A DNA stretch of 64,000 nucleotides from Roseospira goensis (GTDB lineage Bacteria; Pseudomonadota; Alphaproteobacteria; Rhodospirillales; Rhodospirillaceae). Numbering within the stretch: the first letter of the stretch is position 1; each line of letters opens with the position of its first letter. The stretch covers positions 1-64,000 of the forward strand of contig NZ_JACIGI010000004.1 of the NCBI RefSeq assembly GCF_014197795.1. Reading direction: 5' to 3'. The position numbers were made by a program, and so were the translations under genes. Shown piece after piece: positions 37,975 through 52,175 of this stretch. The notes below the pieces were generated by a model. That model had not been told where the DNA came from. It saw only the letters and a program-made list of their open reading frames with translations, and did no database searches.

Positions 37975-39612
37975 CTATTGCTGACCGCGGGCCGCGGCCA
38001 GGCTGCGGGCGTTCAGGGACGCCGTCGTGTTGTCGCCGCCCGACACGCGGATCACGGGCGCAGCGGCCTGCGGGGACGGCGCCGGCGGTGCGTAGGCCAA
38101 CGACGGATCGGAGACCGGGGCCGGGACCGCCGGCGCGGACAGATGCTGCCCCGACGACGGGGCCGGCCGCGCCGCCATCGGTGCGGCGGGCTGCGCCGGA
38201 GCGGTCGACGACGTCATGGTGGGCTGATCCGGCGCCGGCCGGTTGGCGTCGGCCGGGCTGCGGTTGCCGAAACTGTAGTCCGGCACGACCTCGGCCCCGG
38301 CCCGCGCCGTCGCCACGGCCTCCGCCGGGTCCCCGATGCCCAGGGTCGAGGACAGCGCCCCCATGACGGCGAGGATGCGGTACGCGGCGAACTCCGTCAC
38401 GTACTGGGCGCTGACCAGGGCGCTGCGGGCGAGGAAGAGTTCGTTCTCGCTGTCCAGCAGATCGAGAAGGTCGCGTTGGCCGATGAGGAATTCCTGGCGG
38501 TAGGTCGCGACGACCTCGGTATTGGAGGACACCTGCTCGCGCAGGATGCCGACCCGGGTACGCGCGGCGTCCAGGGCATTCCAGGAGATCTTGGTCTCCT
38601 CGGCGATGGCGCGTTCGACATTCATGGTCTCGGCGCGCTGTTCGCCGACCCGGTGGGCCAGTTCCGAGCGCCGCGCGGTGTCGATGCCGCCGTTGAACAG
38701 GTTCCAGTTCAGGCGCAGCAGGGCGCTGGCGTCATTGTTGGCACCGTTGGCGCCGTCGACGTTGTAATTGCGGCTGTGCTGGAGTTCGAGATTGATGGTG
38801 GGGTAGTAGCGCGCCGCCGCCTCCCGGTGCACGGCGGCGGCCTCGTCGATCTCCGCCGCCCGCGCGCGCAGCGTCGGGCTGTTGTTGATGGCGTAGGCGA
38901 CCGCCTCGTCCAGGCGTCCGGGCAACGAGCCGGCGACCGACGGGGCCTGATTCAGGCCCTCGGCCTCAGCGCCCACCACCCGCATGAAGCGGGCACGCGC
39001 ATCACGCAGATCCTGCTCCGAACTGACCACGGTCTCGCGCGCAGCCGCCAGCCGGCTCTCGGTCTGCTGCAGGTCGCCGACGCCGGATTCGCCGCCTTCC
39101 ACGCGCTGGCGCACCTGGGCCAGGATGCTCTCGTGCACGGCGACGTTCTCGCGCGCGATCCCCAGCAGGTCCTGGAAGCGCAACACGTCCAGATAAACCT
39201 CGGATGCATCCAGCGACAGGGTCTCGACCCGCTCCTCGACCCGGTACGAGGCCCCGTCGAGGCGCGAGGCCCGCTGCTCGATCAGCGCCTCGCGGCTGAA
39301 ACCGTCGAACAGCAATTGGGTCAGGCGGAGCTGGGAATCGTAGCGCAGCAGGGTCTTGTCCGGGTCGATGGCGCGCGTCTGCGTCCACTCGGGCCCGACA
39401 TCCGCGCTCAGGTCGAGGCGCGGAAAGTACAGACCGCGGCCCTGCTCCAGTTCGTAGACCTGGGCGCGCCGGTTCTCCTTGGCGGCCTCGATCTGCGGGT
39501 TGGTGGTCACCGCCCGAGACGCGGCCTCTTGAAGCGACATGGCAGACGCCGAGGCGCCGCCGAGGAGTGTCAACGCGCTGGTGGCCAGAAGCAGGGGCCG
39601 AAAAAGACGCAT
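37975..39612 (-). CDS. tolC: TolC-family outer-membrane channel of type I secretion
   Basis: A 545-residue outer-membrane efflux protein. The signal peptide ends ASASA near residue 24, and two repeats of the TolC fold follow: SLQEAASRAVTTNPQI starts the first and LDEAVAYAINNSPTL the second. LFDGFSRE and LFNGGIDTARRSEL are the paired channel-strand segments. A C-terminal Pro/Ala-rich tail of about 120 residues follows the second repeat, longer than in E. coli TolC. With the ABC transporter and HlyD-type adaptor encoded 5-10 kb away it can complete a type I secretion system (LapE-like). It is transcribed alone and leftward. Confidence 0.92.
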   Translation of the reverse strand: MRLFRPLLLATSALTLLGGASASAMSLQEAASRAVTTNPQIEAAKENRRAQVYELEQGRGLYFPRLDLSADVGPEWTQTRAIDPDKTLLRYDSQLRLTQLLFDGFSREALIEQRASRLDGASYRVEERVETLSLDASEVYLDVLRFQDLLGIARENVAVHESILAQVRQRVEGGESGVGDLQQTESRLAAARETVVSSEQDLRDARARFMRVVGAEAEGLNQAPSVAGSLPGRLDEAVAYAINNSPTLRARAAEIDEAAAVHREAAARYYPTINLELQHSRNYNVDGANGANNDASALLRLNWNLFNGGIDTARRSELAHRVGEQRAETMNVERAIAEETKISWNALDAARTRVGILREQVSSNTEVVATYRQEFLIGQRDLLDLLDSENELFLARSALVSAQYVTEFAAYRILAVMGALSSTLGIGDPAEAVATARAGAEVVPDYSFGNRSPADANRPAPDQPTMTSSTAPAQPAAPMAARPAPSSGQHLSAPAVPAPVSDPSLAYAPPAPSPQAAAPVIRVSGGDNTTASLNARSLAAARGQQ

Positions 39613-39882
39613 GTTTCCCTCCGTTGGGGCAAGCCTGACAGCACACCGACGCGTGGCAGTCTCCAGGATGACGGGCCAGGTATTGTTACGAGTCTTGTAT
39701 AACGGTTAGAGCACCTTACATGATGTTGTCAATCGAGGGCTAGCCCTATTGTTTCGCGTTCGCGCCCTATCCCTGTTCAGTCTGTTCGACGCCCGGAAAG
39801 CGACCGGCGGCACCTGATCGAACCGGAGTCGGCGTCGCGCGCGCCGGCGCGGCTCCGGCGGAAGCGGGCCGGACGCCGCCCC
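39613..39882 (-). promoter_or_regulatory. tolC upstream region with a -35-like TTGACA
   Basis: This 270-base gap between the tolC start and the HD-GYP-like gene's stop has an AT-rich stretch at 39680-39760. On the minus strand, TTGACA lies at 39732-39727, but the hexamer at 17-nt spacing (CTAACC) is poor; GTTATAC lies further down. A perfect palindrome GGGCTAGCCC just upstream of the TTGACA (about 39738-39747) could be an operator. Nothing else is seen. Confidence 0.4.
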
Positions 39883-42021
39883 CTAGCCGCCGCCATCATC
39901 CTCGCCCACCCGGCGCCAGCGCTCCGCGCCGCCCCGATTCTCAAGGTAGTTGAGCAGGGCCGCCACCGGGCGCCGGTCGAAGCGGGCGCCGGCGTCCTTC
40001 AGCAATTCGGCGCTGGCGGTGTCGACCGGCAGCGCCCCACGGAAGGCGCGCGGGCTGACCATGCCCACGAAGGCATTGGCCACCATCACGATGCGGGCGG
40101 ACAGCAGGATGGCGTCTCCGGCCAGGCCATCCGGGTACCCGTGCCCATCCCACCGCTCCTGAAGCTGGCGCAGGGTCTCCGCCACAGGCAGGTCGAACGA
40201 GACCGCGCCGAGCAGATCCGCGGTCTGCACCATCGCGTCCCGGACCACCGTCATCTCGTCCTCGGTCAGCGGCCCCGTCTTGGTGAGGATCTCCTCCGGA
40301 ACCAAGATCTTGCCCACGTTCATGAGATTGCCGGCGATGTCCACGGTGCGACACATCTCCTCCGGCTCGCCCATTTCCTCCGCGATGTCGCGGGCCAGTT
40401 CGGCCACCAGGGCCGAGTGGTTGGCCGAGAACGGATCGCGCCGATCCACCAGACTGACCAGGGTGCCCACGAGCTGGCGCATGATGGCCTCGCGACGGGC
40501 GCGCTCGGCCATCAACTCGGTCACGTCCTCCAGGACCATGAGCACAGAGCGCGGGTGGTCGCGATCAGCGGCCAGCGGAATGTGGTCGGACTTGATCATC
40601 CGCTCGTGGCCGTCGCGCTCCAGCGCGCGCACCTCTGAGACCGGGCTGCCGGTCCGGAAGGCCTGGTCGTTCAACTCCTGGAACTGACGGGCGGTGTGCG
40701 GCCCCATGACCTCGGACATGGTCTTGCCGACGATCTGGTCCGGCGTCAGGCCCGATCCCCAAGTGGCGCCGATGTTCGCGAAGGTGTAGCGCCCGCCCTC
40801 GTCCACGGCGGCGATGGCCGTCGGCTGGCCATCGGTGACCACCCGCACGAACTTCATGTAGTTGCGCAGCCGATCGGCGGCGATGCGGTGCCGGGTCGCC
40901 ACCTCGGCCAGCCGCACCGATGTGCCATGACGCCACAGGGCCAGCGCCCCCACCAGGACAAAGACGATCAGCAGCACGAACACGATCAGCGTCGTCCGCA
41001 GCCGCGATTCGGAGGCGGCCAGGGCCTCGGCCTCGTGGATGGCGTGAACCAGCACCCAGTCGGTGCGCGGGATGACGCGGCTGGTGAACAGCACGTCGTC
41101 GCCCGCATGATTGCGGCCGAAGCCGAACAGGCCGGGATCGTCGATGGCCCGGGCGGCGGCCAGTTCCGGCGTGTCCAGGGACAAGCTCTTGCCCATCGGC
41201 GGCGTGCCGTCCGCCAGCGGCGTGACGTACTGCACGGAGCGATCGCGCTGCCGCACCAGGTAGGTCTCGGCGGTCTCCCAGGCGTTGCCCGGCTGCTCCA
41301 GCAGATCGAACACCGTGCGGTCGAACGGCCGCAGCCCGACGATGTAGCCGATCTCGTTGCCGCTGCCGGCCTCCTGCTGCACGGCGTACAGCGGCACGGC
41401 GAACCCCAGCAGGGGCTCGCCGGTGGGGCCGTCCTGCGGCCCGTACACCGCCGGCTTGCCGTCGGACGCAGCGGCCAGGATGGGGCCGAAGCCGTCCGGC
41501 AGCCCCGGCATGAACTCGCTGGCCACGATCAGGCCGCCCCCGGGATTGACGATCGCCAGCCCGGCGGTGACCGGCGCACTGACGTTCGCATCGACCCGGC
41601 TCGCCCGGCGGCTCGGCACGAACCCGGTCTGGTCGGCGGTCGCGTTCAGGAAGTTGCGGATGAAATTGCCCTCGACCTGGTCGATGTCGTCGCCGATCCC
41701 GGAGGCCAGGTCCATGGCATAGAGCTGCAGGTTGGCGTTGGTGGACAGGTGGCTGAGCACGCCAACCTGCTCGCTGAGCCACTGCGCCAGGGCGCCGGCG
41801 CGGCCGTCGGCCACGATGCCGAGCCGCACCTGCCAGTTCTGCACCTCGCGCTCGCGCTCGGCCTGCACGAACGAGACCACCAGGCCGATGCCGACCACGG
41901 TCACCACCGCGAGGGTGATCATCACCACCAGCATGCCGCGCCGGGCCCGCCGGCCGCCGGTCTGGTCCACGTCGTTCGAACCCGCGTTGGGACCCGCGTT
42001 CGGACCCGCGTCCTCGTCCAT
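39883..42021 (-). CDS. Membrane sensor with PAS and degenerate HD-GYP domain
   Basis: A 712-residue inner-membrane protein. It has a TM helix near residues 27-50, a periplasmic Cache-like sensor region of about 290 residues, a second TM helix before WRHGTSVRLAEV, a PAS domain (IAAVDEGGRYTFANI), and a C-terminal HD-GYP-like domain. In the last, the first His survives (ANHS), but the HD pair reads MN (NLMNVGKI), the KRHP His and the HHxERW His pair are lost, and only ERWDGHGYPDG keeps the GYP. Phosphodiesterase activity is therefore unlikely; a c-di-GMP receptor or scaffold role is inferred. AGGAGG precedes the ATG at 42021. Confidence 0.8.
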   Translation of the reverse strand: MDEDAGPNAGPNAGSNDVDQTGGRRARRGMLVVMITLAVVTVVGIGLVVSFVQAEREREVQNWQVRLGIVADGRAGALAQWLSEQVGVLSHLSTNANLQLYAMDLASGIGDDIDQVEGNFIRNFLNATADQTGFVPSRRASRVDANVSAPVTAGLAIVNPGGGLIVASEFMPGLPDGFGPILAAASDGKPAVYGPQDGPTGEPLLGFAVPLYAVQQEAGSGNEIGYIVGLRPFDRTVFDLLEQPGNAWETAETYLVRQRDRSVQYVTPLADGTPPMGKSLSLDTPELAAARAIDDPGLFGFGRNHAGDDVLFTSRVIPRTDWVLVHAIHEAEALAASESRLRTTLIVFVLLIVFVLVGALALWRHGTSVRLAEVATRHRIAADRLRNYMKFVRVVTDGQPTAIAAVDEGGRYTFANIGATWGSGLTPDQIVGKTMSEVMGPHTARQFQELNDQAFRTGSPVSEVRALERDGHERMIKSDHIPLAADRDHPRSVLMVLEDVTELMAERARREAIMRQLVGTLVSLVDRRDPFSANHSALVAELARDIAEEMGEPEEMCRTVDIAGNLMNVGKILVPEEILTKTGPLTEDEMTVVRDAMVQTADLLGAVSFDLPVAETLRQLQERWDGHGYPDGLAGDAILLSARIVMVANAFVGMVSPRAFRGALPVDTASAELLKDAGARFDRRPVAALLNYLENRGGAERWRRVGEDDGGG

Positions 42022-42298
42022 CGGCTTCGCCTCCTGCCGTCGCCCCGCGATCACGCCCCGCACGGCATGGTGCCATGCCGCCCCGGTGCCGGCAATTCGG
42101 CTGCGCGGCCGGGGGTGAAACCGGCGGCACGGGCGCCATGTCGAAAAACAATAACGCCGGACTGTGTAAAAATGTTAACTGTTTGGGTGGAGTGTTGTTG
42201 GGTCGGCTGCGCGTGTGGGGGGCATCCCCAACGGCAAGGACTGTCGTACCAACCCGCGCCGCTACATTCGGTGGTCTTGGACAAGAAAGCCTGACCCC

Positions 42299-43303
42299 AT
42301 GTTGCAAGCCCAGAAAGAACCGCCCGCCCTGGTCTGCGTTCCTCTGGCGGGCGACCCCGCCCCGGTTCTGAACGCCCTGCGGGACGCCGGCCTGCGTCAC
42401 CGCATTCTGGAGCACCGCGAGCACTTGGCCCGCATGGGGGCGGTTCCTGTGCTGGTCCTGCTGGACGAGACCGACGCCGAGGCGATCGCCGCCTTGCGCG
42501 GCCGGACGGCGGACACGACCGTCGTGGTCCGCGGCCTGACCGCGGCCGGCGAGGAGGCCCTGGTCCGGGCCGGGGCCGACGAGGTTCTGGACCTTGCTGA
42601 CGTAACGCCGGCGCGACTGACTCGGGCGCTGCACCGGGCGCGCCTGCGGCGGACTCTCTCGGACGACGCCGAGAGGGCCCGCACCGTCGCCTACGACATG
42701 CTGGACCGGCTCCCGCTCGCACTGGTTCTGGTCCGACCCGACGGCCGCGTGGTTCATGCCAACACCCATGCCAAGCGGCTGCTGGAGACCGGCACCGCCC
42801 TGGGTCGCAACCGCGGCGGTTACCTGGTGGCCGCGCATGCCGACGAGACCAGTCGGTTGCGCAGCACGATCGAGGCCGTGGCCGAGGGCGGCGCGCTCCC
42901 GGATGGAACGATGCCGGAGGGCGCCATCGCCGTGCGGCCGCGTGACGGCGGCACCCCCTATGCCGTGATCGTCGTGCCGGCCGGCCCCGCCAATCCGGGC
43001 GCGGCCCTGTTCATCGCGGACCCCGAGGCCACCTTCACCATCAGCGACGCCCGTCTTTCGGCCCTGTACGGCCTGACGCGCTCCGAGGCCCAGATCGTCG
43101 CCCGCCTGGCCCGTGGCCAGACCCTGGACCAGATCGCCGCCGACCGCGGCCAGCAACTGGCGACCCTGCGCAGCCAGCTCAAATCGGTGTTCCGCAAGAC
43201 CAGCACCCAGCGCCAGGCCGACGTCATCAAGATGGTGCTGTCCGGCCCCGCGGTCATTGCCGCATCGGCGGCCGACTCCGAGGCCTCGCCGGATCCGGCG
43301 TGA
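42299..43303 (+). CDS. PAS/LuxR-type transcriptional regulator with receiver-like N-terminus
   Basis: A 334-residue protein. The N-terminal ~110 residues have a receiver-like alternation (VLVLLDETDAEAIAAL) without a clear phospho-Asp context. Residues ~125-235 look like a PAS domain (LALVLVRPDGRVVHANTHAKRLLE). The C-terminal ~65 residues form a LuxR/GerE HTH: LTRSEAQIVARLARGQTLDQIA and the recognition helix region TLRSQLKSVFRKTSTQRQADVI. It sits divergently from the degenerate HD-GYP sensor and is a candidate regulator of the secretion locus. Its 3' end overlaps the lapG-like gene by 50 bp on the opposite strand. Confidence 0.8.
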   Translation: MLQAQKEPPALVCVPLAGDPAPVLNALRDAGLRHRILEHREHLARMGAVPVLVLLDETDAEAIAALRGRTADTTVVVRGLTAAGEEALVRAGADEVLDLADVTPARLTRALHRARLRRTLSDDAERARTVAYDMLDRLPLALVLVRPDGRVVHANTHAKRLLETGTALGRNRGGYLVAAHADETSRLRSTIEAVAEGGALPDGTMPEGAIAVRPRDGGTPYAVIVVPAGPANPGAALFIADPEATFTISDARLSALYGLTRSEAQIVARLARGQTLDQIAADRGQQLATLRSQLKSVFRKTSTQRQADVIKMVLSGPAVIAASAADSEASPDPA

Positions 43304-43958
43304 TGTGGCGCCACCAGCGCCCCTCGCCGAGCGAGTAGATCGGGCGATAGTGGGAGATCCGGTCATCGGTGACCGGACGGTCGATCTGGTTGTCGAGGAT
43401 GTAGCGCCGGCCGGCATGCCGTGCCTCCAGCACCGCGTGCCGGATGCCGAGGTTGAGGTCGGACACGATCACGACGCGCAACGCCGAGGCCGGCCACCCC
43501 AGCGCCCGCAGCGCCATGTACTTGGCGATGGCGAAGTCCTCGCAATCGCCGCCGCGGGCGAGGAACTGCGCCGGCGTGGCCCAGTGATCGGACCGCCCCC
43601 AGTTGGTCGAGTCGGACACGTAGTCCTGTTGGTCCAGCACGGCGTCGATCCGCTGCAGCTGCGCCATCGGCTCAAGGCCGCGGGCCGTCCCGATGATCGC
43701 GGCCCAGGGGTCGCTCTGGCACGCCGCGCTCCGCGCCGCCCCGCAGTCCGCCGCCACCGCCGGCCGGCGGGCCTGGGCGCTGTCGCGCAGGACCGCCGCC
43801 CAGCGTGGGAACGCCGTCATGTCGACACGCTCGTGTTCGATGCTGCCGAACACGCCGGTCGTGGGCTCGGCCGCCACGGCCGTGGCCAGCCCGACCGACA
43901 GCGCCGCGGCCAGCAGAGGGGCCACGGCCCGGCGGACGCGCAGCGGACGGCCCTTCAT
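43254..43958 (-). CDS. lapG: LapG-like periplasmic cysteine protease (BTLCP family)
   Basis: A 234-residue bacterial transglutaminase-like cysteine proteinase. An N-terminal signal peptide ends AVAA near residue 30. The catalytic triad is intact: Cys139 in GGDCEDF, His174 in GIRHAVLE and Asp189 in YILDN. LapG cleaves the N-terminus of the giant adhesin LapA when c-di-GMP is low, releasing biofilm cells; no LapA is visible in this window. A palindromic AT-rich element lies between this gene and the divergent type I transporter, suggesting common control. ATG 43958 is chosen so the signal peptide starts with MKGRPLRVRR. Confidence 0.85.
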   Translation of the reverse strand: MKGRPLRVRRAVAPLLAAALSVGLATAVAAEPTTGVFGSIEHERVDMTAFPRWAAVLRDSAQARRPAVAADCGAARSAACQSDPWAAIIGTARGLEPMAQLQRIDAVLDQQDYVSDSTNWGRSDHWATPAQFLARGGDCEDFAIAKYMALRALGWPASALRVVIVSDLNLGIRHAVLEARHAGRRYILDNQIDRPVTDDRISHYRPIYSLGEGRWWRHITPDPARPRSRPPMRQ

Positions 43959-44409
43959 GCGGTCTCGGTCCCAGGAAGGCACGGGCTGATCGCCGTCGCA
44001 GAGAGCGCCAGCCAGCCCTGACGTCCGACTCACTGGAGCAGTCCCCTGTGGCCCGCGCAGTGATTGACGTCACACCTTCGAAGGCCGCGTTATCATCTTG
44101 ATAAGACATAAATTTTATATATGTGAGAGGGACACCGGCGGGAGTCGGCACAAGAGCGGCCACGGCGGGTCGTGGACCGCAACGAGACCGATCCCGGCGC
44201 ATCCGCGACGGCGGCCATCGGAGTCGGCGGCGCGCCGCTGGATGTCACGAGCGAGAAAAAGTGTCTGACTTCAACGGATAACAGGAGACTGCTGCGAAAC
44301 TGGTGGGGGAGGGCACCCCGGATTCGGCGCTTGCTCTCTGTCAAGAACAGGACTATCCTTCAGAAGTGGGTCGAACCTAAGGCTCTACCTGCTTGTAAAA
44401 AAACGAATT
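43959..44409. promoter_or_regulatory. Divergent control region of lapG-like gene and type I transporter
   Basis: About 450 bases without a convincing gene. The stretch 44085-44130 is markedly AT-rich in a 70% G+C genome and holds TTATAT/TATATA-like -10 material. TTGACG at 44064-44069 and TTGATA at 44098-44103 are -35-like, but neither pairs well. No strong ribosome-binding sequence precedes either possible transporter start (ATG 44410 or 44425). Confidence 0.5.
44090..44104. promoter_or_regulatory. Perfect palindrome TTATCATCTTGATAA (candidate operator)
   Basis: TTATCA at 44090-44095 is the reverse complement of TGATAA at 44099-44104, separated by TCT. It is centred in the AT-rich part of the divergent region between the lapG-like gene and the ABC transporter, where an operator would be expected. 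The regulator is unknown. Confidence 0.5.
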
Positions 44410-47400
44410 ATGGTGGTTCGCCACATGGTCGGCAAGGACACCAGGTCAGACGACTCCTGGTTCTCGGCGCCTCCGGACAGTTCCCGGGGCGGCGCGGGGA
44501 GCGAGGAGTCGCGCGGCTGGGATCTGCGTCCGACCGACCTCAAGCCGGAGAGTGCGGATCCGCTGCTGGGCGCCCTGCTGGCGCTATGCCGGCTGCACGG
44601 CCGGCCCCGGTCCGCCGCCTCGCTCACCGCCGGCCTGCCGCTGGAGAACAACCGCCTGACGCCGCACCTGTTCCCGGTCGCGGCCGAGCGTGCCCGCCTG
44701 AGTGCCCGGCTGGTGCGGCGCCCCTTCGCCGACATCCCGCATCATCTCTATCCGGTCGTGCTGCTGATGAAGGGGCGCACGACCTACGTCGTTCTGCGCG
44801 AGGTGCGCCGCGACCAGTTCGAGGTTCTGCTGCCGGAGACCGGGACCGGGACCGAGATCCTGTCGCGGGCCGCCATTGAGGCCCGCTACGAGGGGTACGC
44901 GATCCTGGCGCGCCCCGAGGTGACGTATCGCGGCCAATCCGACGATCGGGTCGAACCGCCCAAGGGCGACTGGTTCTGGTCGACCCTGCGCCGTATGGGC
45001 CGAGTCTACGCCTACGTCATCCTGGCGGCGATCATGGTCAACCTGTTCGCCCTCGCCGGCCCGCTGTTCACCATGAACGTCTACGACCGCGTGGTGCCCA
45101 ATCAGGCGCTGGAGACGCTGTGGGTGCTGGCGAGCGGCGTGGTCATCGTCTACGCCTTCGACTTCGTGCTGCGCCTGATCCGCGCCTACCTGATCGACCA
45201 CACCGGCAAGCGCGCCGACGTGGTGATGTCGTCGATCATCTTCGGCCACGCGCTCAACGTCCGCATGGGCGCGCGGCCCGCCTCCTCGGGCGCCTTCGCC
45301 AACAAGCTGAAGGAGTTCGAGGCCGTGCGCGACTTCTTCGCCTCGGCCACGGTGGTCGCGCTCGTCGACATTCCCTTCATCTTCCTGTTCATCGCGGTGA
45401 TCTACTGGATCGCCGGACCCGCGGCCTATGTGCCGTTGCTGGCGGTCCCGGTGGTCATCATCGGCGGGTTGCTGCTGCAGGCGCCGCTGCGCCGGGCCGT
45501 GCAACGCACCAACGAGCGCAACTCGCAGAAGCACGGGATCCTGGTCGAGGTCATCTCGTCCCTGGAGACGATCAAGAGCCTGGGCGCCGAAGGGCGCATG
45601 CAGCGCGACTGGGAAGCCTTCACCGGCGAGTCCGCGAGCCTCGGGGCGCGGGTCAAGTTCCTGTCCGGTCTGGGCGTCCACTTCGCCGACTTCGTGCGCC
45701 ACATCGTCACGGTCTCGGTGATTATCATCGGCGTCTATCAGATCTCGAACAACGCGATGACGATGGGCGCCCTGATCGCCGCGACCATCCTGACCGGGCG
45801 TATCATGGCGCCGCTCGGCCAGGTGGCCGGTCTGGTCGCCCGCCTGCATCACGCCTTTTCGGCGCGCAAGTCGATCGACGAGATCATGGCCTTGCCGGTG
45901 GACCGTCCCGCCGGCAAGCAGTTCCTCAGCCGCCCCGCCCTCGCCGGCCGCATCGACTTCCGCAACGTCACCTTCTTTTATCCGAACACCCAGACGCCGG
46001 CCCTCAAGGACGTCACCTTCACCGTGGGCCCGGGCGAGCGCGTCGCCATCATGGGGCCGATCGGATCCGGGAAGTCGACGGTCGCCCGCCTGCTCACCCG
46101 TCTGTACGACCCCGGCGAGGGCTCGATCCAGATCGACGGCGCCGACATCCAGCAGATCGACCCGGCCGACATCCGCCGCACGGCGGGTGTGGTGCTCCAG
46201 GACGTCGTCCTGTTCACCGGCACCGTGCGCGACAACATCGCCATGGGCGCCCCGGAGGCCGACGATCAGATGATCCTGCGCGCTGCCGAACTGTCCGGCG
46301 CCCACGAGTTTATCAGCCGCCACCCGCTGGGCTACGACATGCCGGTGGGCGAACGCGGCTCGCTGCTGTCCGGCGGGCAGCGCCAGGCGGTCGCCCTGGC
46401 ACGGGCCCTGCTGCCGGATCCGCCGATCCTGGTCCTCGACGAACCCACCAGCATGATGGACATCCCGACAGAGGAGGCCTTCGTGGAACGACTCGGCACC
46501 GCCCTGAAGGAAAAGGCGCTGATCATCATCACCCACCGGCCCTCCCTGCTGAGCATCGCCGACCGGCTGTTGGTGCTGCGGAAGGGCGAGGCGATCGCCG
46601 ACGGTCCGGTCAACGAGGTGCTGCCCAAGCTGCTGCCCAAGGGGGCCGTCAGCGGCCGCGGGCTGCCGCCGGCCCGGACCCTCAAGGCGCATATCGAGCG
46701 CGGCGATCTGGCCGCGGCGGGCAAGACGAAGTCCGGTGAGGCAAAGGCCGGCGACACCAGGACGGACGACGCCAAGGCGGCGGACAGCGCCGGCAAGACG
46801 GTGAAGACGGCAAAGAGTGCGAAGACGGCGAAGAAGGCGAAGACGGACAGCGACACGGCCGAGAAAGCGGCCAGGCCGTCGCGGCCGCCGGCGCCCCCTC
46901 GCCCGGAGAAGCCGGCGGCCCAAAGCGCGACCCATCGGGTGCGCGCCGCCAACGATGGCCACGACGCCGGTCCACGGCCCGGCTCCGCCCCAATGGTGCC
47001 CCCGGCACAGACGCCGGAGCCTCCGGCCGCGGCCGCGCCGCCCCGGGCCGTGGAGCGGACGCCCGAACCTGCGACCACCGAGGCCCCAGCCCCCGCGGCC
47101 ACCGCCGGTGCCGCGACAGGCGAGACACCGCCGAAGTCGATCCGGCGCCCCCTCACCGTTCCCCTGCGGGCGGGGCGCCAGCCCGCCGACGAGCCGCCCC
47201 CGGCGCCCGTGGACGCGCCCGCCGCGTCGGCCGAGGAAAGGCCGGATCCGACGGCTCCGGCCGCACTCACCGCCCACGGCGACGCCAAGTCCGAGCGCCC
47301 GGTGCTCCGGACACCGCCGGCGGCGGCCGGACCGGCACCGACACGGCCGGTGAGCGCGCCCGGCCTGCGCACTGCGCCGCCGCGCCCCACCCTCGTCCGG

Positions 47401-48096
47401 ACTCCGGCGCCACCCGCGCCGCCCGTTGACAGGGCACCCGCCGCGGTGCTTCAAGAAGACGGGGACCGTGCGAACACGCGCGGGGGACCCGCCGACGCCC
47501 CGACGGCGACCACACCGTCGAGCACGGGGCCGACCGCCGCCCCCACCGCAGTGCCCGAGACGGCGCCTGAGGCGACGCCCGAACCGGCGTCCGAGAGGTC
47601 TGCGGTCCGCGCCACGGCCAGAGCGGCCGCCGAGCGCAGACCCGAGCCGGCGGCCCGGCAACCGGAGACCGCGGCGCGGACGGCGCCGTCCGCCGGGACC
47701 CGTCCCGCGTCCCGCCTCGAGGATCCGCAGCGGCTGTCGTCGCGGGTCACCGCACCGCCGGACTCCCTGGCCTGGCGCACCGCCGCGCCGCCCAAGCCGC
47801 CGGCCGCGGCGCCGTCCAACGGCAAGACCCGGCCCCGCAAGGCGGCGATGGTGGCCATGCGCCGGCGACCCGGCGAAGTCCTGGCGCCGTCCGCCCCGCC
47901 CCGGCCGAAGCTCGCCGTCGCGGCCAACCTGCCGGCATCGGCCGAGGAGACCACCCGGCCCAAGGCTGAGGGCGGTCGCCCCGGGCGGGCCAGCGGCCTA
48001 CGACCGATCCCGGCCCAGGGCCGACGGCCGGACGCCGGGCCCGACTCCTCGGGTCCGACCGCTTCGTACGGACGTAACCGCGGAGGATCGCGATGA
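44410..48096 (+). CDS. Type I secretion ABC transporter (LapB-like) with long disordered tail
   Basis: A 1228-residue protein. Residues ~1-150 are a C39-like domain without the catalytic Cys (DPLLGALLALCRLHGR), as in LapB/HlyB-type exporters. Six TM helices follow (about 195-490), starting VYAYVILAAIMVNLFAL. The nucleotide-binding domain has Walker A GPIGSGKST (549-557), LSGGQ (653-657) and Walker B ILVLDEP, all intact. The domain ends near residue 735; the last ~480 residues are Lys/Ala- then Pro/Ala-rich, repetitive and without a fold, which is far longer than usual. It is coupled to the HlyD-type gene by an ATGA overlap. Confidence 0.9.
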   Translation: MVVRHMVGKDTRSDDSWFSAPPDSSRGGAGSEESRGWDLRPTDLKPESADPLLGALLALCRLHGRPRSAASLTAGLPLENNRLTPHLFPVAAERARLSARLVRRPFADIPHHLYPVVLLMKGRTTYVVLREVRRDQFEVLLPETGTGTEILSRAAIEARYEGYAILARPEVTYRGQSDDRVEPPKGDWFWSTLRRMGRVYAYVILAAIMVNLFALAGPLFTMNVYDRVVPNQALETLWVLASGVVIVYAFDFVLRLIRAYLIDHTGKRADVVMSSIIFGHALNVRMGARPASSGAFANKLKEFEAVRDFFASATVVALVDIPFIFLFIAVIYWIAGPAAYVPLLAVPVVIIGGLLLQAPLRRAVQRTNERNSQKHGILVEVISSLETIKSLGAEGRMQRDWEAFTGESASLGARVKFLSGLGVHFADFVRHIVTVSVIIIGVYQISNNAMTMGALIAATILTGRIMAPLGQVAGLVARLHHAFSARKSIDEIMALPVDRPAGKQFLSRPALAGRIDFRNVTFFYPNTQTPALKDVTFTVGPGERVAIMGPIGSGKSTVARLLTRLYDPGEGSIQIDGADIQQIDPADIRRTAGVVLQDVVLFTGTVRDNIAMGAPEADDQMILRAAELSGAHEFISRHPLGYDMPVGERGSLLSGGQRQAVALARALLPDPPILVLDEPTSMMDIPTEEAFVERLGTALKEKALIIITHRPSLLSIADRLLVLRKGEAIADGPVNEVLPKLLPKGAVSGRGLPPARTLKAHIERGDLAAAGKTKSGEAKAGDTRTDDAKAADSAGKTVKTAKSAKTAKKAKTDSDTAEKAARPSRPPAPPRPEKPAAQSATHRVRAANDGHDAGPRPGSAPMVPPAQTPEPPAAAAPPRAVERTPEPATTEAPAPAATAGAATGETPPKSIRRPLTVPLRAGRQPADEPPPAPVDAPAASAEERPDPTAPAALTAHGDAKSERPVLRTPPAAAGPAPTRPVSAPGLRTAPPRPTLVRTPAPPAPPVDRAPAAVLQEDGDRANTRGGPADAPTATTPSSTGPTAAPTAVPETAPEATPEPASERSAVRATARAAAERRPEPAARQPETAARTAPSAGTRPASRLEDPQRLSSRVTAPPDSLAWRTAAPPKPPAAAPSNGKTRPRKAAMVAMRRRPGEVLAPSAPPRPKLAVAANLPASAEETTRPKAEGGRPGRASGLRPIPAQGRRPDAGPDSSGPTASYGRNRGGSR

Positions 48097-49415
48097 CGGT
48101 ATCCTGGGACGACGTGCGCTTTGCCCAGCATCGGGTTCAGGCCGAGGTCATCGGCCCCAGCCGCGTGGCGTACATCGTCCTGATGGTGATCGTCGTGTTC
48201 TTCGTGCTCGCCTTCCTGTGGGCGAAGTACACCGTCATCGACGAGGTGACGCGCGCCCAGGGCCGCGTCATCCCCTCCTCCAAGATCCAGGTCGTGCAGA
48301 ACCTGGAAGGCGGCATCGTCGAGGAGATCCTGGTCCAGCCCGGCAAACTGGTCAGCCAGGGCGAGGTTCTCATGCGCCTGGACAACGTGGGCTTCGGCTC
48401 CGACCTGGGCGAACTGGAGGCCCGCCGCACGACGCTGATCGCCCGGATCGCGCGCCTCAAGGCCGAGGTGGAGGGCACACCGCTCCAGCTTCCGGCCGAT
48501 TTCGTCGCGCGCGCGCCGGGCGTGGCCCAGTCCGAGCGCGAACTGATGCGCACCCGGCGCGAGAACCTGGAGGTGCAGATCAGCATCCTGGAAGGGCAGG
48601 TCTCGCAACGGCGCCAGGAGTTGCTGGAACTCGAAAACCGGGTCGAGCAGGCCCGCGACAGCCTGGGCCTGATCTACGAGGAGATCTCGATCACCCGCCC
48701 GCTGGTGGCCAACGGCGTGGTGCCGCGCATCAATCTGCTGCGCCTGCGGCGCGAGGCCAACGACCTGCAAGGCGAGATCGAAGCGGCCGAACTGGCGCTG
48801 CCCCGAGCGGAGTCCGCCCTCCAGGAGGCGAGCGAACGGATCGAGGAGAAGTACCTGACCTTCCGCACGGAGGCACAGGCCGCGCTGCTGGAGGCTCGCA
48901 GCGAACTGGCCGGGATCGCGGAACGGCTGACCGCCGCCCAGGACCGGGTGAAGCGCACCGAGATCCGCTCGCCCGTGCACGGCGTGGTCAAGACCCTGAC
49001 CGTCCGCACGATCGGGGGCGTGATCCAACCGGGCATGGACATCATGGAAATCGTCCCCGTCGACGACACCCTGCTGGTGGAGGCCCAGATCCGGCCCGCG
49101 GACGTCGGGTTCCTGCGGCCGGGGCTGGAGGCCATGATCAAGTTCACGGCCTATGACTTCAGCATCTACGGCGGCCTCAAGGGCACCCTCGAGTCGATCA
49201 GCGCCGACACCATCGTCGACGAGATCACCAACGACAGCTACTACCTCATCACGCTGCGCACCAACGAAAACACCCTGAACCGCAACGGCGAGACCCTGCC
49301 GCTGATGCCCGGTATGATCGCCACGGTGGACATCCTGACCGGCAAGCGGTCCATCCTGGACTACCTGCTGAAGCCGATCCTGAAGACGCAGTCCCGCGCC
49401 CTGACGGAGCGTTGA
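48093..49415 (+). CDS. HlyD-family membrane fusion protein of type I secretion (LapC-like)
   Basis: A 440-residue periplasmic adaptor. One TM helix (YIVLMVIVVFFVLAFLWA, ~26-45) anchors it; residues ~60-100 are the lipoyl-like half (QNLEGGIVEEILVQPGKLV), ~120-290 a long coiled-coil hairpin, then the second lipoyl half (TEIRSPVHGVVKTL) and a beta-barrel ending with PLMPGMIATVDILTGKRSILDYLLKP, where only PGM and GKRSILDYLLKP are quoted as the family hallmark. It links the ABC transporter to the TolC channel. It overlaps the transporter stop by 4 nt and is followed within 3 nt by the pseudo-LapG gene. Confidence 0.93.
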   Translation: MTVSWDDVRFAQHRVQAEVIGPSRVAYIVLMVIVVFFVLAFLWAKYTVIDEVTRAQGRVIPSSKIQVVQNLEGGIVEEILVQPGKLVSQGEVLMRLDNVGFGSDLGELEARRTTLIARIARLKAEVEGTPLQLPADFVARAPGVAQSERELMRTRRENLEVQISILEGQVSQRRQELLELENRVEQARDSLGLIYEEISITRPLVANGVVPRINLLRLRREANDLQGEIEAAELALPRAESALQEASERIEEKYLTFRTEAQAALLEARSELAGIAERLTAAQDRVKRTEIRSPVHGVVKTLTVRTIGGVIQPGMDIMEIVPVDDTLLVEAQIRPADVGFLRPGLEAMIKFTAYDFSIYGGLKGTLESISADTIVDEITNDSYYLITLRTNENTLNRNGETLPLMPGMIATVDILTGKRSILDYLLKPILKTQSRALTER

Positions 49416-49417
49416 CC

Positions 49418-50164
49418 ATGGCCGCCTGCGCCGGTCCCCCCCCTGCCCGCCCCCGACGCCCCGGGGTGCTGCTCGCCGGCCTGATCGGGCTGGCGGCCCT
49501 GGTCGCGTCGCTGCCGGGCCGGGCCGCCGAGCGTGACCCGCTCGAGTCTATGCGCCTGGACATCATGGGCACCGTGTCGGTGCACGCGCCGGACCTGTCG
49601 GCGTTTCCGCGCTGGCGGGCCGCCCTCGCCGAGGTCGAACCCTGGCTGGCGCGCATGGCGGCCTGCGCCGAGCGGCCCTGTCCCGACCTCAGCCTGCCGG
49701 AGAAGGTGTGGCTCAACCGCATCCAGGGACTGTCCCGGCTGCCGCCGGACCGGTTGGCGCGGGCCGTCGCGACATTCCTGGACGACCTGTTGGCGCTCAG
49801 CCCGGAGGCGATCGCCGCCGAGCATGTCGGCCCCTGGCCGACCATGCAGAACCTCCTCGCCGGAGACGGGCGGGACGGCCTGGGCCGGGCCCTGGCCCGC
49901 TACTATACGCTGCGGGCCGCGGGTCTCGACCCGGATCATGTCCGCCTGATCGTCGCCCGCGACACGCTGACCCTGGAGACCACCCACGTGGTGCTGGTCG
50001 AGACCCCGCAGGTTCAGATCGCCATGACCCGCTACGGCGTGCACAGACCCGACTCCGGCCGGGAGCATGCCTTCGTGCCGGTCTACGCCTTCGACCACAG
50101 CGGTCGGTGGCTGTATTTTCCCGAGACGGTGCTGGACGAGGCGGCACCGGCACCATCGGACTGA
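49418..50164 (+). CDS. Catalytically degenerate LapG-like protein (pseudo-protease)
   Basis: A 248-residue exported protein whose N-terminal hydrophobic segment (VLLAGLIGLAALVA) is a signal peptide or anchor. It aligns with the LapG-like protein encoded at 43254-43958: DLSAFPRWRAAL matches DMTAFPRWAAVL, and LARYYTLRAAGLDPDHVRLIV matches IAKYMALRALGWPASALRVVIV. Where LapG has Cys139-Glu-Asp this protein has Asp/Gly-Leu-Gly, so the nucleophile is gone; the His is kept (TTHVVLV, His190), while the Asp region reads MTRY. It is predicted to bind but not cleave. A TTG at 49412 is an alternative start. Confidence 0.75.
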   Translation: MAACAGPPPARPRRPGVLLAGLIGLAALVASLPGRAAERDPLESMRLDIMGTVSVHAPDLSAFPRWRAALAEVEPWLARMAACAERPCPDLSLPEKVWLNRIQGLSRLPPDRLARAVATFLDDLLALSPEAIAAEHVGPWPTMQNLLAGDGRDGLGRALARYYTLRAAGLDPDHVRLIVARDTLTLETTHVVLVETPQVQIAMTRYGVHRPDSGREHAFVPVYAFDHSGRWLYFPETVLDEAAPAPSD

Positions 50165-50225
50165 CGGCCGCGCCCCGCGCCGGGAGGACCCGGACCGCGA
50201 CCGCCATGACGGGAGACGACAGAAG

Positions 50226-52175
50226 GTGAAGACCGTCGTGCATCCAGACGCCCCCCTCCCCGCGCCCCTGCCCGTCGCGGATACGGCCGCCCAGGCCGCC
50301 GGCGCGCCGGCCCCCGAGCCGGCATATGGCGCCGGCCGGTCCGAGAAGCGCACCGCGCTGTGGATCGCCGCCGCCGCCGGGGGACTGGTTCTGCTTGGGG
50401 GCATCGGCCTGACCCACCTGTACGCCGAAGGCGAGCGCGCCGAGGAACGCGCGGCGGCCGAGGTGCGGGCGGCGGCGGTGCTGACGACGCGCCTCGACCG
50501 CATCGAGACCTGGCTGGACAGCCGCCGCCAGAGCCTGCGCGCCCTGGCGGGCGGCGAGGCGCTGCGCATCCTGGCCACGGAACTGGCCGCCGCCCAGGCC
50601 AGCGGGCGCCAGACATCGGTGACCCCGGAACTGATCTTTCTGCGCGGCGCCCTGGAGCGGCAGGCCATGGCGTTCGGGGCCAGCGGCCTGACGCTGCTGC
50701 GCCCGGACGGCGAGGCCTGGATGGTCGTGGGCGACGCCGGGCCCGACCTGGCGCGGATGCCGCCGGCGCGCCTGAGCACCATCATGGAGACGGGCACGCC
50801 GGTCACGGCGGATGCCGGCACCGCCGAGACGCGCGCTGTCGACCTGGTGGTGCCCGTGCGCTCGCTGCAGGACGCCGGCGAGACCGTGGCGGCGCTGGCG
50901 GCCCGGTTCCCGGCGGGGCCGCTGATGGCGGCGATCGAAGCCCCGGACGCACTCGCCACGGCGGGCGAGTCGATCGAGGTCACGGCGACGTCCGCACCGA
51001 CCCCGCGAACGGACGGTCTGCTGGTCGCCACGCGCCAGCCGGAGGGCTTGCCCTGGAGCCTCCACTACACTCGGCCGTGGGATGCCATCCTCGCCGACAG
51101 CCGGGGACCGCTCGTCGCGGGCTACCTGGTGTCGGGCGCGGCGGCCCTGGCCGTGATCACCCTCATTCTCGGGCTCTCCTGGCGCCACGGCACCGCCACC
51201 AACCGCAAGCTCGCCGACCAGTACCAGCGCTTCGCGACGCGGATGGAGTCGGAACGCCACCTGCTCGACACCGTCATCGACGGGATCACGGAATACCTGT
51301 TCGTGGTCGACAGCCGGGGGCGGCTGCGCCATGCCAACGCCGCCGCCTGCGCGCTGGTGGGGGAGCCGCGCGCCGCCATGATCGGGCGCCCCCTGGCCGA
51401 CGTTCTGGACGACACCGAGACGGCGACCCGGCTCCTGACCCTGGGCCAGGAAGGCCGCCTGTCCTGGCCCACCGAATGTCCTCTGGGCGGACAATCGCGC
51501 TGGGTGATGGTCCTGCGCAATCCCCTGCGCGGCGAAGGCCATGACCACGAAGACGGCTGGGTGGTGCTGGTCCAGGACATCACCGATCTGGTCCAGGAGC
51601 GGATCCGCACCGAGAGCCTGCAACGTGCCGTGGTCCGGGCGCTGGGGCGCACCGCCGGGGCCGCCGACCCCTATCTCGCCGACCAGGCCTCCCGCATGGA
51701 GCGCATCGCCCTGCTGATCGCCGACGAGATGGGCCTGGACCACGACGACCGCCTGACCCTGGAGTTTACGGCACAGGTCTCGCAGATCGGCAAGCTGTTC
51801 GTGCCCCGCGATTTGCTCACCAAGACCGAGCGCCTGACCCCGGAAGAACGCGAGGTCATCAAGGCCCACATCGGCCATGCCTGCGCCCTGCTCGACGATC
51901 TCGATCCGAGCCTGCCGATCACGCATACCCTGACGGAGATCACGGAACGCCTGGACGGCTCCGGCTACCCCAACGGGCTGTCGGGCGACGAGATCAGTCT
52001 GCCCGGCCGGATTTTGGCGGTCGCCGACGTGTTCGCCGCGCGGACGGCCGAACGATCCTACCGGCACGCGGCGTCGCCGGAGGATATTCTGGACATCCTC
52101 AAAAAGCTGCCGGATCGCTATGACGCGGAGGTGGTCGCGGTGCTGGCCGGACTCGTGGAGTCCGGGCGCTACTGA
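50226..52175 (+). CDS. Second membrane sensor with PAS and degenerate HD-GYP domain
   Basis: A 649-residue protein with the same plan as the one encoded at 39883-42021. TM1 lies near residues 38-58 (LWIAAAAGGLVLLGGIG), then a ~240-residue periplasmic sensor, TM2 (AGYLVSGAAALAVITLILGLSW), a PAS domain (YLFVVDSRGRLRHANAAA) and an HD-GYP-like domain. Here the first His is lost (ADQ), the HD pair reads SQ (QVSQIGKL) and the HHxERW His pair is lost (EITERLDGSGYPNG); GYP and VADVF are retained. The GTG at 50226 follows GGGAG. It is last of the lapB-lapC-pseudo-lapG set. Confidence 0.8.
   Translation: MKTVVHPDAPLPAPLPVADTAAQAAGAPAPEPAYGAGRSEKRTALWIAAAAGGLVLLGGIGLTHLYAEGERAEERAAAEVRAAAVLTTRLDRIETWLDSRRQSLRALAGGEALRILATELAAAQASGRQTSVTPELIFLRGALERQAMAFGASGLTLLRPDGEAWMVVGDAGPDLARMPPARLSTIMETGTPVTADAGTAETRAVDLVVPVRSLQDAGETVAALAARFPAGPLMAAIEAPDALATAGESIEVTATSAPTPRTDGLLVATRQPEGLPWSLHYTRPWDAILADSRGPLVAGYLVSGAAALAVITLILGLSWRHGTATNRKLADQYQRFATRMESERHLLDTVIDGITEYLFVVDSRGRLRHANAAACALVGEPRAAMIGRPLADVLDDTETATRLLTLGQEGRLSWPTECPLGGQSRWVMVLRNPLRGEGHDHEDGWVVLVQDITDLVQERIRTESLQRAVVRALGRTAGAADPYLADQASRMERIALLIADEMGLDHDDRLTLEFTAQVSQIGKLFVPRDLLTKTERLTPEEREVIKAHIGHACALLDDLDPSLPITHTLTEITERLDGSGYPNGLSGDEISLPGRILAVADVFAARTAERSYRHAASPEDILDILKKLPDRYDAEVVAVLAGLVESGRY

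Follow-up and report, generated by a model that had tools for sequence, protein, structure and literature searches.

We have analyzed a 64,000-nucleotide stretch of DNA from Roseospira goensis (the window; contig C4:1-64000 of genome G000, a 4.18 Mb draft in 81 contigs that is 98.64% complete), in which the segment between 37975 and 52175 carries genes for a type I secretion system (T1SS), two LapG-type proteins and two degenerate HD-GYP receptors. Our reading, to which we assign a probability of roughly 0.7, is that this locus encodes an alphaproteobacterial adhesin display-and-release system resembling the Dvh system of Desulfovibrio vulgaris Hildenborough, with degenerate HD-GYP receptors for cyclic di-GMP (c-di-GMP) taking the place of LapD. 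Most likely, a live LapG with its receptor HDGYP1 (module A) cuts the adhesin, and a catalytically dead LapG paralogue (LapGx) with its own receptor, HDGYP2, might serve as a non-cutting, c-di-GMP-gated holder or guard. The genes are as follows.

37975..39612, minus strand: TolC-type outer-membrane channel (TIGR01844, E 1.6e-87, 294 bits)
39883..42021, minus strand: HDGYP1, dCache-like/PAS/degenerate HD-GYP receptor, partner group of the live LapG (best PDB match DvhD 9RC0, E 1.9e-47; HD dyad reads MN)
42299..43303, plus strand: LuxR-like regulator with a PAS-like part, weak assignment (GerE E 0.055; NCBIfam LIC13292 E 3.3e-6, helix-turn-helix part only)
43254..43958, minus strand: live LapG-type protease (Peptidase_C93 E 8.7e-17; C139/H174/D189; calcium-site Asp and Glu kept; signal-peptide-like N-terminus)
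44410..48096, plus strand: T1SS ABC exporter of the LssB/LapB type (TIGR03375, 914 bits, residues 50-741 of 1228; C39-like domain; long Pro/Ala-rich C-terminal tail)
48093..49415, plus strand: HlyD-type adaptor (TIGR01843, 429 bits)
49418..50164, plus strand: LapGx, LapG paralogue without catalytic Cys/His/Asp (NCBIfam LapG; 4fgo; active-site columns G/T/T)
50226..52175 (start codon tentative), plus strand: HDGYP2, dCache-like/PAS/degenerate HD-GYP receptor, partner group of LapGx (best PDB match DvhD 9RC0, E 8.4e-43; HD dyad reads SQ)

This inventory agrees with the original prediction, which had listed a TolC channel, an exporter with a C39-like domain, an HlyD adaptor, a LapG, a Cys-less paralogue and two HD-GYP proteins at these positions; the LuxR-type regulator that it also named is present as a gene, but the label is weak. 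To place the locus among its relatives, 298 genomes of the order were searched with P0007 (48 matched) and with profile A2, made for HDGYP2 (72 matched at E up to 1e-60), and 385 genomes of the class with profile A1 (92 matched at E up to 1e-6). The A2 scores show a clear gap: 11 genomes lie at 4.0e-249 or better, and the match that follows them, an HDGYP1, is at 4.2e-96. Sixty stretches, 20 from each of three sets, were read in addition to the window and L029; they were chosen mainly among the better-scoring matches, and the counts that follow are thus not class frequencies. In the annotated loci, two modules can be told apart: module A, in which LapG is divergent from HDGYP1, and module B, in which ABC exporter, HlyD adaptor, LapG-type gene and HDGYP2 follow one another. 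This two-module anatomy across the sampled Alphaproteobacteria is new here. LapG next to HDGYP1 stands alone in three genomes of the same genus (L080, L120, L121), and LapG beside a degenerate HD-GYP receptor recurs in many of the sampled Alphaproteobacteria. All eight gene types of the window occur together in six other loci, two from its own family (L067, L068) and four from family f72 (L083-L086); because of this recurrence in two families, the eight-gene set is more than chance.

The modules are also linked in their occurrence. HDGYP1 was present in 15/15 genomes with a dead T1SS-linked LapG copy (in G114 as a fragment at a contig edge) vs. 2/10 genomes with only live HDGYP2-linked copies (G444, G621), giving a Fisher p of 4e-5 by genome, the genomes being related; G475 was excluded from both counts. 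Of the 15 genomes whose T1SS-linked copy is dead, 12 also encode a separate second BTLCP, and its catalytic Cys is present in all nine genomes read of these 12, the copies of G155, G098 and G065 lying outside the reading. In G089 the second BTLCP was seen only as a short, stop-containing frame, and the search for one in G034 and G114 turned up nothing.

Both receptors comprise PAS and HD_5 domains plus a dCache_1 match below the Pfam cut-off, and the top PDB matches of both are the DvhD chains 9RC0/9RBZ (9RBZ, 9RC0 and 9RC2 are DvhD structure entries). The portion of the DvhD report consulted here (PMC13090378, 2026) describes a dCache-PAS-HD-GYP membrane protein in which SQ replaces HD and Met/Asn replace the double His, with an HD-GYP dimer that binds three c-di-GMP without hydrolysis and, in a reconstituted system, with control over the LapG-like DvhG. 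When seven metal-ligand columns were compared with those of an active HD-GYP phosphodiesterase, HDGYP1 kept one of the seven and HDGYP2 two, confirming the earlier view that these proteins lack most metal ligands; with the HD dyad and most further ligands lost, neither window receptor reads as an HD-GYP phosphodiesterase. The HD dyad is lost in 31/31 HDGYP1 and 28/28 HDGYP2, i.e. in 59/59 receptors of the loci read, a sample that leans toward degenerate receptors in that the receptor-calling models were built from degenerate rows. Among the c-di-GMP contacts in DvhD numbering, R650 is kept in 58/59 and L577 in 56/59 receptors. We surmise that HDGYP1 and HDGYP2 may bind c-di-GMP.

That no LapD is encoded at the locus had been part of the original prediction, and none was found in the rest of the genome either, be it as a gene or as a canonical LapD/LapG/LapA operon. 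LapD_MoxY_N stayed below cut-off in the genome (best E 0.47), and none of nine EAL matches was recognized as LapD (L247 lay outside the domain scan); six of the nine score above 225 bits with DDFG motifs, and of two degenerate EAL proteins scanned, one, the degenerate one with a GGDEF domain, is EAL-CBS-GGDEF and the other EAL only. Across the 298 genomes of the order, LapD_MoxY_N was above cut-off in five, in frames of 423-506 aa. A draft in 81 contigs with nine EAL matches leaves some room for a canonical LapD elsewhere that controls LapG, but against the LapD_MoxY_N result and the make-up of the EAL proteins we consider this very improbable. The proposal that a degenerate HD-GYP receptor replaces LapD is thus supported by kinship to DvhD, recurrent adjacency to LapG and the failure to find LapD, but the idea itself has already been published for DvhD. 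One amendment to it is that the two HD-GYP proteins fall into distinct receptor groups, both of which have a LapG-type neighbor of their own.

The live LapG carries exactly the triad that had been proposed, Cys139/His174/Asp189, counted from the ATG at 43958, and it matches both solved LapG structures listed (4fgo, 1.7e-16; 4u65, 4.8e-16). LapGx yielded no Pfam match at E 1 and is weakly recognizable as LapG (NCBIfam LapG, E 8.9e-6; Legionella LapG 4fgo, E 8.6e-5); in the family alignment it has G, T and T where the catalytic Cys, His and Asp would stand. The Cys-less paralogue of the original prediction is therefore real and has lost the His and Asp as well, but it is no local oddity, the Cys-less state being common to most T1SS-linked copies read. 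The catalytic Cys is kept in 28/28 LapG of module A and in 13/14 solo LapG-type proteins (the remaining one is a fragment without that region), vs. 11/27 HDGYP2-linked proteins; in the 16/27 that lost it, the replacements are S (8), G (4), and T, L, A and D (1 each). For three of these 27 (L087, L088, L089), neither an exporter nor an adaptor of this type is encoded in the stretch read, and in the T1SS-linked remainder 15/24 are dead. His and Asp are kept in the dead copies of families f9 and f72 and mostly lost in those of the window's own family. In the sections of the Caulobacter HvyA study consulted here (PMC4241560), C192S/A, H226Q/A and D241A variants were non-functional; because of the C192S/A result, Cys-less LapG copies are expected to be inactive.

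In a tree of 68 proteins, a branch with support of 100/96 separates the 15 dead copies linked to the T1SS from the remaining 53. One ancient Cys loss plus that in L089 would suffice (2 changes on the tree), a count that is not firm given long branches and an unsettled bootstrap. G475 carries a pair of LapG-type genes linked to HDGYP2 (L089, L090); one is live, and the other has Asp in place of the Cys, apparently an independent loss. Open frames are kept in the 15 T1SS-linked dead copies, which come from three families. In LapGx, codon position 3 differs more than positions 1 and 2 (0.45-0.54 vs. 0.27-0.34), similar to HDGYP2; between the window and G130, the differences at positions 1/2/3 are 0.29/0.29/0.45 for LapGx, 0.26/0.22/0.49 for HDGYP2 and 0.17/0.15/0.44 for HDGYP1. 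Given the excess at position 3, LapGx is kept as a protein; it changes at a pace near that of HDGYP2 and shows some signs of relaxation. One could argue instead that LapGx and HDGYP2 are leftovers, LapG and HDGYP1 having taken over the cutting and the operonic copy slowly decaying in the T1SS operon, as the long branches, the loss of His, Asp and calcium-site residues in the window's own family and the faster change of LapGx and HDGYP2 relative to HDGYP1 would suggest; but the open frames, the codon pattern and the retention of the partner receptor HDGYP2 alongside LapGx speak against decay, and we regard this alternative as unlikely.

Two further arrangements of LapG-type genes were encountered. 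On contig C12 of the same genome, at about 28.6-29.2 kb (L001/L029), there is a second intact LapG-type gene adjoined by a histidine-kinase-like frame; within the 20 kb read around it, no HDGYP1, HDGYP2 or T1SS genes were found. L100 (G375) holds a tandem of two intact LapG-type genes, with no receptor of either group within the 17 kb read.

Concerning the substrate, six relatives harbor a large acidic protein in the same stretch, either beside module A (G123, G149) or beside the T1SS operon (G065, G585, G493, G662). The N-termini of these six proteins align as one retention domain, followed by PAAG in 6/6; the adhesin of G149 also has VWA and RTX matches. According to the part of the DvhD report used here, the cut consensus is a DP motif followed by [T/A/P]AAG (PMC13090378). 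Profile A4 matched 33 places in 21/26 genomes, with [TAP]AAG at the expected spot in 24/30 matches examined (three places had no locus); the motif is missing there from six, all of them weak matches (E 1.5e-9 or worse). As Ala-rich proteins such as these might show the motif by chance, the argument lies in its fixed alignment place. The genome of the window has a single A4 match, at contig C1:112724-113152 (E 8.3e-16), which reads DLAPAAGAP with the PAAG in register. Past the retention domain, this candidate (L153:8117-14306) continues with Asp-Ala repeats, within which lies a 93-base N run; more than 1000 further residues follow, with Asp-Ala and SDGDHD-type repeats, and the end of the protein is acidic. 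The original prediction had placed the adhesin outside the window and would have been at odds with an unrelated RTX cargo; the search outside the window did yield this adhesin-like protein, which combines a retention domain with PAAG and, by analogy with the relatives, would be the cargo of this exporter.

RTX-like proteins do exist elsewhere in the genome, and the C1 gene is unlinked to the exporter, such that the exporter might carry another RTX protein (e.g. the paralogues on C8, C16, C24 and C54), with the LapG system acting elsewhere. We find this quite improbable, inasmuch as four relatives have a PAAG adhesin next to this T1SS operon and two have one next to LapG/HDGYP1, and only the C1 protein matched profile A4. 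The proteins from the RTX search on C3, C8, C16, C24 and C54 were set aside as substrates because no retention domain was recognized in them. Two weak matches to the LapA retention module NF033682, on C4 and C22, were also set aside as presumed FecR-like. Four RTX-type proteins (L027, L028, L030 and L032, on contigs C54, C16, C8 and C24) share the N-terminal motif LxALxxxMFNAAPGA and are apparently a family of secreted paralogues.

What can be read directly in the DNA is which genes are present and occur together, which catalytic residues are lost, that the receptors are kin to DvhD, and that there is a retention domain with PAAG; the pairing of receptor with protease and the cleavage are what we surmise from it. 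We postulate that the TolC-ABC-HlyD exporter would display a giant adhesin with its N-terminal retention domain staying in the periplasm, that the live LapG would cut at the PAAG after the retention domain to free the adhesin, and that HDGYP1 would be the inner-membrane receptor restraining LapG in place of LapD. In the second LapG/receptor pair, that of the T1SS operon, LapGx would have lost its catalytic Cys and stayed with HDGYP2; it may bind the retention domain or compete with LapG, without cutting, under c-di-GMP control. This role of the dead LapG, taken by itself, we put forward tentatively. In one specific version, which is speculative yet worth entertaining, LapGx as a pseudoprotease would be held by HDGYP2 at the exporter, bind the retention domain uncut, and shield it from, or hand it to, the live LapG under HDGYP1 control.

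A number of findings weigh against a Dvh-like system with this division of labor: 1) module B is present in 3/6 genomes of the genus (G000, G130, G155) and was not found in G143, G228 and G249, which show just the pair of LapG and HDGYP1, and the live LapG of the window is not orthologous in place, lying elsewhere in G130 and G155 (likewise, the Rhodospira trueperi contig examined carries the operon and an HDGYP1 with no LapG next to it, the LapG of that species being on a different contig); 2) HDGYP1 occurs together with a live operonic LapG in G444 and G621, and G475 combines a dead copy and a live one in the absence of HDGYP1; 3) counted by family, the association of dead copy and HDGYP1 is 3/3 vs. 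1/6, with p ~0.05 and the mixed family f174 left out; 4) LapGx is much diverged in its own family, which also fits decay; 5) the C1 adhesin candidate is on a contig other than that of the exporter; and 6) among the DvhD contacts, K582 and E668 are mostly lost, R569 is also unkept here, M646 is lost in HDGYP2, and Y621, the GYP tyrosine, is kept in 26/28 HDGYP2 but only 8/31 HDGYP1, and the contacts that do persist are for the most part shared with an ordinary phosphodiesterase, which makes them weak evidence that c-di-GMP is bound. The missing or changed Y621 in 23/31 HDGYP1 raises doubt whether HDGYP1 binds c-di-GMP. With several contacts lost and binding a surmise, the HD-GYP proteins might have a different output, for instance by controlling the exporter or some other signaling, and be adjacent to LapG from shared regulation only; kinship to DvhD, the partner of which is a LapG-type protease, and repeated adjacency to LapG-type genes even without T1SS genes make this improbable in our view.

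Compared with known systems, the locus is closest to Dvh (DvhA, T1SS, DvhG, DvhD). Both have a dCache-PAS-HD-GYP receptor without the catalytic HD (SQ in DvhD and HDGYP2), a LapG-type protease, T1SS genes followed by the G and then the D gene, and an adhesin with a retention domain and [TAP]AAG. The differences are that the DvhG triad is intact and, in the part of the report consulted, shown to be active (PMC13090378), whereas the operonic LapGx here is dead, that a further LapG, which is live and has a receptor group of its own, is present here, and that the candidate adhesin gene is on another contig. The active LapG with a receptor that typifies Dvh is found here in the copy at 43254-43958, its activity being predicted from the intact triad. 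As far as tested, receptor type, gene order and substrate place the locus in the Dvh type, of which the dead operonic protease and the second pair would be a variant. In L164, a locus from Desulfovibrio, exporter-like genes are followed by an SQ-type receptor; because no LapG-type gene was found in the 21 kb covered, it is unusable for comparison with DvhG. With the Lap system of Pseudomonas fluorescens (LapA, LapBCE, LapG, LapD), the locus shares an LssB/LapB-type exporter with a C39-like domain, a LapG-type protease with triad and calcium-site residues, and a retention domain with a cut motif; unlike Lap, it has HD-GYP receptors, no LapD_MoxY_N/GGDEF-EAL receptor having been found here, and a dead LapG in addition to the live one. 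The HvyA protein of Caulobacter crescentus is likewise an alphaproteobacterial BTLCP, but it is encoded in a capsule export locus, and the portion of its report used here mentions no adhesin or HD-GYP partner (PMC4241560).

As for the remaining genes, the N-terminal domain of the exporter is C39-like (Pfam Peptidase_C39, E 5.3e-6), and exporter and adaptor genes overlap by 4 nt, as would adaptor and LapGx genes if LapGx starts at TTG 49412 rather than ATG 49418. The Pro/Ala-rich tail of the exporter extends for about 480 residues past the ATPase domain (46645-48096), and the exporter frames of two same-genus relatives are shorter, at 1051 aa (L063) and 895 aa (L064). The LuxR-like gene also lies beside the system in relatives (L063-L065, L067, L068, L083-L086).

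Replacement of LapD by an HD-GYP receptor is no longer new in principle, having been published for DvhD in 2026; the text of that report, as far as it was available, is without the class name Alphaproteobacteria (PMC13090378). In a survey of c-di-GMP genes in five alphaproteobacterial orders, the word "degenerate" is missing from the main text, as far as it was available (PMC9756655). Among the papers listed in a literature search, none dealt, by title or abstract start, with a LapG pseudoprotease or an alphaproteobacterial LapG/HD-GYP pair, subscription journals being thinly covered. Our data indicate that the replacement of LapD by dead HD-GYP receptors extends to the Alphaproteobacteria, and show that an inactive paralogue of the release protease has long persisted in association with the exporter and is kept in several bacterial families. 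LapGx would thereby be a natural pseudoenzyme in a c-di-GMP-controlled proteolysis pathway that is well understood, where live and dead orthologues, as well as adhesin substrates, are at hand for direct comparison. If the proposed role of LapGx is true, two degenerate HD-GYP receptors would set the holding and the release of one adhesin separately.

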